Below are positions 46,073-49,750 of a stretch of DNA of 64,000 nt, piece by piece. The stretch is taken from contig NZ_JMPR01000020.1 in NCBI RefSeq assembly GCF_000735525.1, forward strand, positions 62,001-126,000. Direction: 5' to 3'. Within the stretch, counting starts at the first letter, position 1; the number at the start of each line of letters is the position of its first letter. A program made the translations under genes and the position numbers. Origin of the DNA: Tatumella ptyseos ATCC 33301. GTDB lineage: Bacteria; Pseudomonadota; Gammaproteobacteria; Enterobacterales; Enterobacteriaceae. The notes beneath the pieces are model-generated. The model did not search any database and was not told the origin of the DNA. It saw nothing but the letters and a program-made list of their open reading frames with translations.

Positions 46073-47453
46073 CCAGCCCCCCCGTCACACGAAGTACTTC
46101 AGCCCAGGAGGTGTCAGCACGGCTGACGGCATTCAAACCAGACATAAACAGAGGCTGCATGCCCTGGCGGGAAGCAATCATTTTTAACTCCTGAGAGGAG
46201 ACATCGTCAGCGATAGCCTGGTGTAAATCACCGGTAATGGCCAATACTTCAAAAATGGCGAACCGGCCATAATAGCCGCCAAAACAGTGGTCACAACCTT
46301 CAGCCAGCCAGTGTGTTATGGCGGACGGTTGCCGGCCGGGCGGGCCGGGTAGTGTGGTATCTGCCTGGCGACGACAATGCCGGCACAACCTGCGGACCAG
46401 CCGTTGGGCGATGACTAACCGCAGCGAAGCGGCCAGCAGATACCCGGCAATGCCCATCTGGCGTAAGCGCGTTATCGCTTCAGGTGTCGAATTGGTGTGT
46501 AGCGTTGATAGAACCAGATGGCCGGTCTGAGCTGCTTTGACGGCAATGTCTGCCGTTTCGTTATCCCTGATTTCGCCAATCATAATGACATCCGGATCCT
46601 GGCGAAGCAGCGCCCGCAGGATACGGGCGAAGTCCAGCCCGGCACGGGTATTGATTTGCGTCTGATTAATGCCGGGCAGAGTCATCTCTATCGGGTCTTC
46701 CACCGTGGAGAGGTTTCTATCCGGGGTATTTAAGGCATTTAACAGACTGTAAAGCGTCAGGGTTTTACCGCTGCCTGTCGGCCCGGTGACCAGAATCATC
46801 CCCTGAGGTTGCTGTAATACGGCCAGTAACTGAGTCAGCGTGTCTGGCTCCAGCCCTAACTGTGCAGGAGTCAGGGCTGCGGACAGGGTCTGCAGACGTC
46901 TGAGCACGACTTTCTCTCCGAAGTGTGTCGGCAGAGTCGACAGACGAAAGCTCTGTCTGTCATCGCCGGTTTCATAGCTCAGTTGACCATCCTGCGGCAG
47001 TCGGTTTTCAGCGATATCCACGCCGGCCAGAATTTTAAATCGGGCAATCAGTGAATTCCCCGGACAGGGCAACCTGAGCGGGCAGGGGGAGAGAATACCG
47101 TCGATTCTCAGACGGGCCCGTATTCCTTCCGGGGTCGGTTCAATATGAATATCAGAGGCCCGTAAGCGAATGGCCAGTGCCAGTAGCTGCCCGGCAAGCT
47201 CCGGGATATTGGTGCTTTCAGGGTTTCCGCTTACCGGAGATGATGACGGAGAAGCCGTCTGCTGGCGGCAGTTTTCAATCCGGGCTAGTGGCCAGACTTC
47301 AAAACTGACTTGTCGCTGGCTGGCGAAACGCAGAGATTCGATAATTTCCTCAGCGGGCAACGCTGTCACTGCCAGCCTGAGTAACGTGGCGTCCAGTGAG
47401 AGGATGCAGGCAGGGATCTGGCGGCATAAATTATCCAGCGATTGCGGGATCAT
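46065..47453 (-). CDS. hofB: HofB, type IV pilus assembly ATPase (PilB/GspE family)
   Basis: HofB is a hexameric secretion ATPase expected to power pilus extension. The ATG at 47453 is chosen because AGGAG lies five bases upstream and it overlaps the ppdD stop (ATGA); this gives 462 residues (E. coli 461). Walker A GPTGSGKT, the Asp box, Walker B DPDVIMIGEIRD, the His box TGHLVLSTLHTN and a tetracysteine zinc site (CRHC and CDHC) are all present, so the enzyme looks active. Confidence 0.94.
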   Translation of the reverse strand: MIPQSLDNLCRQIPACILSLDATLLRLAVTALPAEEIIESLRFASQRQVSFEVWPLARIENCRQQTASPSSSPVSGNPESTNIPELAGQLLALAIRLRASDIHIEPTPEGIRARLRIDGILSPCPLRLPCPGNSLIARFKILAGVDIAENRLPQDGQLSYETGDDRQSFRLSTLPTHFGEKVVLRRLQTLSAALTPAQLGLEPDTLTQLLAVLQQPQGMILVTGPTGSGKTLTLYSLLNALNTPDRNLSTVEDPIEMTLPGINQTQINTRAGLDFARILRALLRQDPDVIMIGEIRDNETADIAVKAAQTGHLVLSTLHTNSTPEAITRLRQMGIAGYLLAASLRLVIAQRLVRRLCRHCRRQADTTLPGPPGRQPSAITHWLAEGCDHCFGGYYGRFAIFEVLAITGDLHQAIADDVSSQELKMIASRQGMQPLFMSGLNAVSRADTSWAEVLRVTGGLDE

Positions 47454-47896
47454 AGCTCCTCCTGCTGATCGTCGAACCGGAATTGTGATCGACAATTGTT
47501 GAGAAGCAGTCGGTTTTCACTCAGGCATCGCTTGGTCCATGAAAACTCACCGTCCTGTGCATTCCAGTGGGGGAGCAGCTCGACCGTTAACCCTTTCAAT
47601 GTCTCGCTGCCAGTGAGAGTCATTTTACCGTCACTGACCTGCAGGCTTCCGGTGTAACGAGACCCTTTCACGGCGGGGATACCGTATGTCTCTGCATTAC
47701 ATCCCTGGCTGGTTCCTTTTTCCATACTGCAAAGTTCAATCGCGGTTTTATACGGTAACATTAGTTGCAACATATCGGTGATGGCCGCTTTCTGCAGATA
47801 GTTCTGATACGCCGGTAAACCGATAGCACTGAGGATGGCGATAATCGCGATCACGATCATTAGTTCAATCAGGGTAAAACCTTGTTGTTTTTCCAT
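47450..47896 (-). CDS. ppdD: PpdD, major type IV pilin
   Basis: PpdD is a prepilin of 148 residues (E. coli 146). It has a short basic leader MEKQQG cut before FTLIELMIVIAIIAILSAIGLPAYQNY, the hydrophobic helix with Glu5 that forms the pilus core. Two C-terminal cysteines (KRC and NNC) likely form the disulfide loop. First gene of ppdD-hofB-hofC. An AGGAGGGTATC ribosome-binding site precedes the ATG. Confidence 0.95.
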   Translation of the reverse strand: MEKQQGFTLIELMIVIAIIAILSAIGLPAYQNYLQKAAITDMLQLMLPYKTAIELCSMEKGTSQGCNAETYGIPAVKGSRYTGSLQVSDGKMTLTGSETLKGLTVELLPHWNAQDGEFSWTKRCLSENRLLLNNCRSQFRFDDQQEEL

Positions 47897-48065: not shown

Positions 48066-48977
48066 TTAGGCGCTGGCGGGCAAAAACTGCAGTGAAATAT
48101 TCAGAGGCTGTGGCTGGTTCAGTAGTGCATTGGCGGAAAGGTAATCCACACCGGTATGTGAAAGGGCCGGCAGATGCTGACAGGTATTTTGTCCGCTGAT
48201 AATCAGCATCGGTGACACCTGTTGTTTGTGGCGTTCAGTGACCGCAGCATTGACTTCCGGCAAGGTGAAGTTTTGCAACTGTATAAGATCTGCCCCGGCG
48301 ACCAGTGCCTGTGAGAACTGTGTGAACGATGTCACTGTGACTTCAATCGGGCGGTCCGGGTCGATCCAGCGGGCATTTTCTATTGCCGAAACGACCGAGC
48401 CACAGGCGATAATATGGTTTTCGTTAATGGGGATCAGATCGCTCAGGTCCAGCCGCTGTGCCGTATGATCGCCGCAGAGAAGCGCATATTTTATCGCGTT
48501 ACTGAATCCCGGCTGAGTATTCAGGGAATCCATCACCCGGAGCTGAGTGTCAGCTAACTGGCTAAGGGTATGGCTGAAGCGGGTTGAAATTCCGGATAAT
48601 GTCTGTAAAAAATGCAACACCGAAGTTTCGGCACTGAGTAATGCGGTAGCGGGCCCGGTCAGGGTGGCCAGTATTTGCCCCTGATGAATCGCGGCGGCAT
48701 CGCTGGTATGCCACTGCCACGTTATGTCGGGGCTAATCTGCTGAAGCACCGCCTCAGCCCAGGCTTTACCGCAGAATATACCGTCTTCATGGCTGATAAG
48801 CTGCGCCTGGCTGCGCTGCGTTTCGCTGACCAGACGAGTCACCAGAGGATGGTCAGGGTGTCGCTTGCCTGCGGGGGCATTCTGTAATGCCTGCGTAACG
48901 ACTTCCGGAATGTCATACCTGACGCGTTCGAGTAGCTGTCGTTTGCAGTGTTCTGAGGCAGTATGGCTTACGGGCAT
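48066..48977 (-). CDS. nadC: NadC-like protein, quinolinate phosphoribosyltransferase with degenerate active site
   Basis: The 303-residue product aligns along its whole length with E. coli NadC (297), which turns quinolinate into nicotinate mononucleotide, and it sits where nadC lies in E. coli. Conserved framework stretches include NGxFCGK-like DGIFCGK, LQTLSG, KYALLCG and NENHIIACGSV. However, the residues for substrate binding and catalysis are mostly gone: Arg of GERTAL is Thr118, the TRKT motif reads SLNT (residues 151-154), the His of NHR is Gln174, the Lys of LIKENH is Asn185, the catalytic Glu is Thr214 and the Asp of LDNF is Gln235. The frame has no stop or shift. It is probably an inactive enzyme early in decay, or a protein with a new role. 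The start at 48977 has AGGAG 11 bases upstream; an in-frame ATG at 49067 is less likely. Confidence 0.88.
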   Translation of the reverse strand: MPVSHTASEHCKRQLLERVRYDIPEVVTQALQNAPAGKRHPDHPLVTRLVSETQRSQAQLISHEDGIFCGKAWAEAVLQQISPDITWQWHTSDAAAIHQGQILATLTGPATALLSAETSVLHFLQTLSGISTRFSHTLSQLADTQLRVMDSLNTQPGFSNAIKYALLCGDHTAQRLDLSDLIPINENHIIACGSVVSAIENARWIDPDRPIEVTVTSFTQFSQALVAGADLIQLQNFTLPEVNAAVTERHKQQVSPMLIISGQNTCQHLPALSHTGVDYLSANALLNQPQPLNISLQFLPASA

Positions 48978-49171
48978 GGGGCTGTTTGCTCCTTTAGTCA
49001 CAGGAATAAATACTGTAGCCTGAAGTGTCATGACTCTCCAGCCGAATAGCGTAACCAGTTGAGTCATCGGGTCTGACGGCAGAGGTAGTCAGTCTGAGAG
49101 TCGCTGGCACCCGGAACGGATAAGCAATATCATGATAACTCTTATGTTATTCTCGACCTTATGCAGGGAAC

Positions 49172-49750
49172 ATGACCCATATGAAACTTGAATCTGGCTG
49201 GCTGACAACGGCAAGAAAAGTCCCTTCAGCGCATTTTAACGAGCGTCCGGAAGAGGTGTCCCCCTGGCTATTGGTGATCCATAATATCAGCCTGCCTCCG
49301 GGGAAATTTGGCGGTCCCTGGATAGACCAGCTCTTTACCGGCACCCTGAATCCCGACGATGACCCGTATTTTGAGGGGATCGCGGCGCTAAAGGTGGCTG
49401 CACATTGCCTGATCCGACGTGATGGTGAAATAGTGCAATATGTGGCTTTTGATAAGCGCGCCTGGCATGCCGGGCAGTCTTCCTATCACGGGCAGGATAA
49501 TTGTAATGATTTTTCCATCGGTATTGAACTGGAAGGCACGGATACCGTGGCGTATACCGCGCAGCAATACGAGTCATTGTGTCAGATAACACGCCTTCTG
49601 ATGCACTGTTATCCGATAAAAACTGACGATATTACCGGGCACAGTGATATTGCCCCCGGACGTAAGACGGATCCCGGGGAGGCATTTGACTGGCAATACT
49701 ACCGGCAACAACTGCAGGCGATAACCGGCGAGCAGGCCGGACAGAAATGA
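49172..49750 (+). CDS. ampD: AmpD, N-acetylmuramyl-L-alanine amidase (1,6-anhydro type)
   Basis: AmpD cleaves anhydro-muropeptides in the cytoplasm during cell-wall recycling and so keeps AmpR-controlled beta-lactamase low. It has 192 residues (E. coli 183). The zinc ligands are His37 in LLVIHNISLP and the His and Asp in GHSDIAPGRKTDPG. The substrate motif FDKRAWHAG and CNDFSIGIELEGTD are intact. The ATG at 49172 or, three codons on, at 49181 may start translation; the AGGGA spacing does not decide. ampE follows 17 bp downstream. Confidence 0.95.
   Translation: MTHMKLESGWLTTARKVPSAHFNERPEEVSPWLLVIHNISLPPGKFGGPWIDQLFTGTLNPDDDPYFEGIAALKVAAHCLIRRDGEIVQYVAFDKRAWHAGQSSYHGQDNCNDFSIGIELEGTDTVAYTAQQYESLCQITRLLMHCYPIKTDDITGHSDIAPGRKTDPGEAFDWQYYRQQLQAITGEQAGQK

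Follow-up and report, generated by a model that had tools for sequence, protein, structure and literature searches.

NadC, the quinolinate phosphoribosyltransferase (QRPTase; EC 2.4.2.19) of de novo nicotinamide adenine dinucleotide (NAD) synthesis, has been considered in Tatumella as part of a lost pathway. According to the nad passages of a comparison published in 2018 (PMC5808187), 'nadABCX' was present in 21 of 21 Pantoea and in none of three Tatumella; no word of its main text begins with 'nadC', and those passages say nothing of a nadC frame having been retained. Titles and abstract beginnings in the literature likewise yielded no description of a retained inactive NadC. Here we describe such a frame in Tatumella ptyseos ATCC 33301, located in a stretch of 64,000 nucleotides (contig NZ_JMPR01000020.1, positions 62,001 to 126,000; hereafter the window). 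Its nadC encodes a full-length protein with an erased active site, and proteins of this type are very probably pseudoenzymes under purifying selection.

Erasure of the active site and loss of the de novo pathway

Residues of the window protein are counted from M1 at position 48977, whereas column numbers such as R119 refer to a canonical reference NadC (L013). From M1 the frame runs uninterrupted to 48066 on the reverse strand over the whole NadC length, and the Salmonella enzyme (QAPRTase, 1qap) is matched end to end (E 8.5e-64; residues 43-328 of the long frame), which together confirm the open frame over the whole enzyme reported in a preliminary description of this DNA. Both Pfam domains score above their cut-offs (PF02749, QRPTase N, 55.2 bits; PF01729, QRPTase C, 110.8 bits), and the fold predicted by a structure model is still that of NadC. 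With TIGR00078, the NadC equivalog, the protein reaches 188.1 bits and falls short of the cut-off of 198.4, a threshold that does not cleanly separate erased from intact NadC, as the atypical proteins of two further enteric genomes, G047 (201.7) and G117 (220.5), pass it.

The genus was represented by six genomes, that of the window included, and in all six a full-length open nadC frame lies between ppdD and ampD. For comparison we used the 30 best-scoring NadCs, L013 among them, out of 79 enteric genomes with a match, a set biased towards canonical forms, in which all 22 active-site motif columns are identical in every sequence. In the window protein, the residues for quinolinate, phosphoribosyl pyrophosphate (PRPP) and metal (R119, R153, K154, H175, K186, E215, E217 and D236) are all substituted, and the DTRKT motif reads D150-S-L-N-T. 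Six of these residues, R119, R153, K154, H175, E217 and D236, are absent throughout Tatumella, while K186 is lost in five genomes and retained by G003, and E215 is lost in three and retained in the other three species. The residue list of the preliminary description (SLNT, Thr118, Gln174, Asn185, Thr214, Gln235) therefore holds at every position in the window protein, but includes more than the genus as a whole has lost. The substitutes vary by species (N, N, N, S, S and G for K154; Q, Q, Q, K, A and G for H175). An alignment slip was rejected because the flanking residues E118, F124, K164, N188, H189, E213 and G260, invariant across canonical and Tatumella NadC, stay in register, and the catalytic residues do not align at other positions, as the preliminary description had allowed for. 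Erasure of the NadC active site is confirmed in all six Tatumella genomes.

The rest of the pathway is missing as well. No NadA match was obtained in any of the six genomes, even at E 10, and no frame exceeded the NadB cut-off of 452.75; the top NadB-like frames (588 amino acids, 334-337 bits) are presumably the succinate dehydrogenase flavoprotein. The PncB-type nicotinate phosphoribosyltransferase family is present in all six. Since NadA and NadB are missing and PncB is present, NAD in Tatumella must come from salvage, and from this gene content a nicotinate requirement can soundly be predicted; titles and abstract beginnings in the literature yielded no statement of such a requirement. A second NadC elsewhere in the window genome was rejected, as no QRPTase C domain besides that of the nadC frame was found at E 0.001. 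The earlier claim that no de novo NAD synthesis proceeds through this protein is thus supported. The PnuC-family nicotinamide mononucleotide transporter (L055-L057) occurs in three of the six genomes, namely those of the window, G004 and G005, and is missing from G001-G003, a distribution that fits the two subclades of the genus.

Selection on the retained protein

The two close pairs of Tatumella sequences gave low ratios of nonsynonymous to synonymous substitution (dN/dS, omega), siding with a retained function. Between the window and G005 (85% amino acid identity), 83.0 differences at 220.3 synonymous sites and 48.0 at 688.7 nonsynonymous sites correspond to 0.140 (NG86) or 0.216 (YN00); between G001 and G002 (83% identity), 103.0 at 208.8 and 61.0 at 667.2 correspond to 0.121 or 0.161. 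We further applied a simple, purpose-written codon branch model (17 of 39 aligned nadC sequences on the topology of the nadC tree, F3x4, with a separate omega for each class of branches), which estimated omega at 0.078 for the background, 0.458 for the Tatumella stem and 0.193 for the Tatumella clade. For the clade, both omega = 1 and equality with the background were rejected (twice the log-likelihood difference, 2dlnL, 368 and 41, respectively), while omega = 1 stands for the stem (p 0.20); a split model gave 0.161 on the four youngest Tatumella branches. Among nine genes compared within Tatumella only, nadC is the least constrained, yet far from neutral (nadC 0.185, coaE 0.158, hofB 0.119, hofC 0.113, ampD 0.080, pdhR 0.076, ppdD 0.071, ampE 0.049, aroP 0.045).

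The constraint is unevenly distributed. Omega is 0.072 for residues 177-220, compared with 0.294 for residues 221-303 and 0.12-0.18 for the remaining three parts. At 16 of 297 reference positions the six Tatumella proteins share a residue unseen in the 30 canonical NadCs, and nine of these new invariants (D178, I183, P184, C193, N202, R204, D207, R210 and Q221) fall within 178-221, where 2.4 are expected (hypergeometric 8e-5, for a 44-position stretch picked after the data had been viewed). In a structure model from a seven-sequence alignment (a run with four sequences had a pLDDT confidence score of 55.6), with the patch placed by the order of elements, helix 195-205 leads through the DPDRP loop into strand 211-215, and confidence is low at 189-192. 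Helix-to-strand loops of an alpha/beta barrel sit on the face opposite the active site. Because the DPDRP loop would accordingly face away from it, we consider a binding surface more likely than chemistry in the pocket.

We judge the chances to be slightly on the side of a NadC-fold pseudoenzyme kept for a new, non-catalytic role, binding or scaffolding through the patch of residues 177-220. Given a pseudoenzyme under selection, such a mechanism would be the likeliest of several, with somewhat over half of the weight. The ancestor of Tatumella would have lost nadA and nadB and relied on PncB salvage, selection on the NadC active site would then have ceased, as a stem dN/dS indistinguishable from 1 suggests, and fresh purifying selection on the protein would have set in before the six lineages split. 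The fold could no longer make nicotinate mononucleotide, and a presumed NadC oligomer would act on a putative partner through the new patch, chiefly NARW[IL]DPDRP, with the old pocket uninvolved.

Two alternatives dispense with a function of the protein altogether. Plain decay, with nadC as a pseudogene in the making that has not yet met a stop after the loss of nadA and nadB, agrees with the missing pathway, with the broken nadC of two other genomes (G055 and G056, see below) and with the speed of nadC, which outpaces its neighbours (46-48% identity between the window and G001-G004, compared with 51-92% for the other eight genes). It is nevertheless very unlikely and was rejected for Tatumella, since an omega well below 1, the youngest branches included, and open frames in all six species indicate selection on the protein after the loss of catalysis; in a neutral simulation without indels, moreover, 4.7% of copies were still stop-free at 0.1 substitutions per site, 1% at 0.2 and not one of 300 at 0.25. 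Of the two options in the preliminary description, decay without stops and retention for a new role, it is retention that the purifying selection supports. A constraint acting on DNA or RNA (an overlapping gene, an antisense RNA or a promoter) rather than on the protein could draw on the lowish proportion of synonymous differences in the 180-210 block (0.28 and 0.29, compared with 0.38 and 0.49 overall), but third codon positions vary inside the block, which places the constraint on the protein, and it is the nonsynonymous sites that carry it. We regard this explanation as most improbable, and an overlapping or antisense gene was rejected, because the length of the antisense frame is not conserved among the six Tatumella.

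The other alternatives retain the pocket. An altered enzyme, in which a remodelled pocket serves a different reaction or substrate, would account for the invariance of K164, N188, H189, E213 and G260 in canonical and Tatumella forms and for the new D178, P184 and C193, which we take to be pocket-side and which are invariant in all six. It is unlikely, however, since all six have lost the arginines of GERT and TRK together with the TRK lysine, the His and the LDNF Asp, with substitutes that vary by species, and since constraint is weakest in residues 221-303, presumably the site of the PRPP-side loops. A non-catalytic sensor, whose pocket binds a metabolite such as nicotinate or another pyridine compound and which regulates another protein, would fit the start of the conserved block at D177..H188, presumably the pocket rim; the loss of the dianion-binding residues and the lack of a conserved regulator gene adjoining nadC make it less probable still.

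Several points weigh against a binding or scaffold role and against the course of events proposed for it. The patch contains the old invariants N187 and H188 in addition to pocket-side residues, so that ligand binding or new chemistry may be involved instead. Loss at catalytic columns, compared with other canonical-invariant columns, is of borderline significance in Tatumella (7/14 versus 31/131, p 0.051). Equality of stem and clade omega stands (p 0.10), so the order of relaxation followed by constraint is suggestive only, and synonymous change is near saturation outside the two close pairs. The conserved neighbour genes point to no function, and expression, oligomer and partner are inferred.

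nadC in other enteric lineages

The NadC cut-off was reached by 185 of 295 genomes of the family. A weak best NadC score (E above 1e-70) was found in 16 genomes outside Tatumella, comprising G047, G117, G055 and 13 with ModD-like proteins. NadA was above its cut-off in none of ten enteric genomes with atypical nadC, G047 and G117 included; a sub-threshold NadA stretch in G047 is a frame of 64 amino acids (E 0.19). G047 (4.8 Mb; L066, 311 amino acids) and G117 (3.6 Mb; L074, 309 amino acids) carry full-length, syntenic NadCs that have lost different catalytic residues. G117 is the milder case of erasure, because R119, R153, H175, K186, E215 and E217 are kept, and its losses are not concentrated on catalytic columns (5/14 versus 39/131, p 0.76), whereas those of G047 are (9/14 versus 29/131, p 0.0018). 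Both losses look independent of Tatumella, since the AmpD of a canonical genome (L031, 69.7% identity) is nearer to that of the window than theirs (64.0% for G117, 63.2% for G047). G117 and Tatumella, both on long branches, group together in the NadC tree at a support of only 0.446. Omega = 1 was rejected for G047 (0.225) and for G117 (0.200), each represented by a single genome (no second G117-like genome was sought); because these branches include time before the loss, they do not support selection after the erasure, which is observed in Tatumella only.

Other genomes present further outcomes. The nadC pieces of G055 (L094, L095), which has no NadA match, stop at two contig ends where the letters diverge, as if the gene were interrupted by something, and G056 holds a nadC remnant with two stops. 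In G039 (3.2 Mb, L063; omega 0.149), also without a NadA match, NadC keeps 20 of 22 motif columns (N188S and G281S being the changes), and the genome may rely on quinolinate import or represent an early stage. The fate of nadC after the loss of nadA thus differs by lineage, the gene being lost, broken, intact or erased but open, which makes a second function on which every enteric depends less likely. It is doubtful that a hidden second function of NadC outlived its chemistry, with Tatumella, G047 and G117 independently keeping the protein after the loss of nadA and nadB and erasing its sites differently.

Neighbouring features and relation to known systems

The features of the region are given in Table 1. 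The names of the neighbours ampD and ppdD were assigned on the assumption of E. coli gene order, not by a family scan.

Table 1. Features in and around the nadC gene of the window
Feature	Position	Strand	Basis or conservation
nadC-derived gene, probable pseudoenzyme	48066..48977	-	303 codons and stop; family profiles and 1qap match
GERT Arg replaced by T118	48624..48626	-	S/T in 6/6 Tatumella
Erased TRKT motif, residues 151-154 = SLNT	48516..48527	-	1qap and motif-column alignment
His before Arg replaced by Q174 (NHR reads A-Q174-R175)	48456..48458	-	lost in 6/6 Tatumella
IKENH Lys replaced by N185 (I-N185-ENH)	48423..48425	-	lost in 5/6 Tatumella
Catalytic Glu of VEVE replaced by T214	48336..48338	-	lost in 3/6 Tatumella; following Glu (reference E217) lost in 6/6
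LDNF Asp replaced by Q235 (L-Q235-NF)	48273..48275	-	lost in 6/6 Tatumella
Most constrained block, residues 177-220 = DLSDLIPINENHIIACGSVVSAIENARWIDPDRPIEVTVTSFTQ	48318..48449	-	omega 0.072, synonymous sites variable
New invariant N-A-R-W-[IL]-D-P-D-R-P, residues 201-210	48348..48377	-	last part of helix 195-205, then the loop leading into strand 211-215
Shine-Dalgarno-like TAAAGGAG	48989..48996	-	AAAGGAG identical in 6/6 Tatumella
GGCTACAGTATTTA, likely -10 region	49007..49020	-	identical in 6/6 Tatumella; uncalled by consensus scan
ampD, divergent neighbour	49172..49750	+	synteny
ppdD, pilin-like, downstream neighbour	47450..47896	-	synteny

Upstream of the likely -10 region, the element GTTAC.CTATTC..CTGG (window 49038-49055; L058-L062) is common to the six Tatumella and may act as an operator or belong to the promoter. 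In G004 alone, about 1.6 kb with three extra frames of 161, 115 and 167 amino acids (L062:6341-7701) separates nadC from ppdD; the first of these frames resembles the Hcp-type proteins of type VI secretion systems. The hofC homologue of G003 (L058, about 10254) is open only from residue 155 onward (246 amino acids) and is of full length in the other five. A mobile copy of nadC was rejected: 301 records of a plasmid collection match, and the best 10 of the 301 are all below 60% identity.

If retention for a new role is correct, Tatumella NadC represents a pseudoenzyme that arose from a single-copy gene of central metabolism without duplication and was kept genus-wide after the loss of the de novo NAD pathway, and it would offer a clean test of why an enzyme fold persists once its chemistry has become useless. 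It also calls for caution in annotation: because the gene resembles nadC by position and Pfam domains, metabolic reconstructions may credit Tatumella with an impossible NAD step.

Compared with canonical NadC, the Tatumella protein is alike in ancestry, in its position between ampD and ppdD, in the two-domain fold and in its full length, and differs in the substituted quinolinate, PRPP and metal residues and in a score slightly under the equivalog cut-off. ModD (TIGR01334), a QRPTase-like protein of unknown function, belongs to the same superfamily, but the window protein reaches only 37.2 bits against a cut-off of 178.85. The 13 enteric ModD-like proteins (L076-L088), so labelled from their residues and low NadC scores without a TIGR01334 scan, keep the T-R-K, HR, E and D residues that the Tatumella protein lacks, and identity with ModD was therefore rejected. 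A parallel is offered by the adenine phosphoribosyltransferase (APRT) of Trypanosoma brucei, which we take to belong to another phosphoribosyltransferase family. An isoform of T. brucei APRT is reported to be kinetically inactive (PMC8836349), and the Tatumella protein would, judged from its sequence, likewise be a phosphoribosyltransferase relative without activity; in T. brucei, however, an active paralogue exists, whereas the window genome yields no QRPTase match beyond nadC itself.
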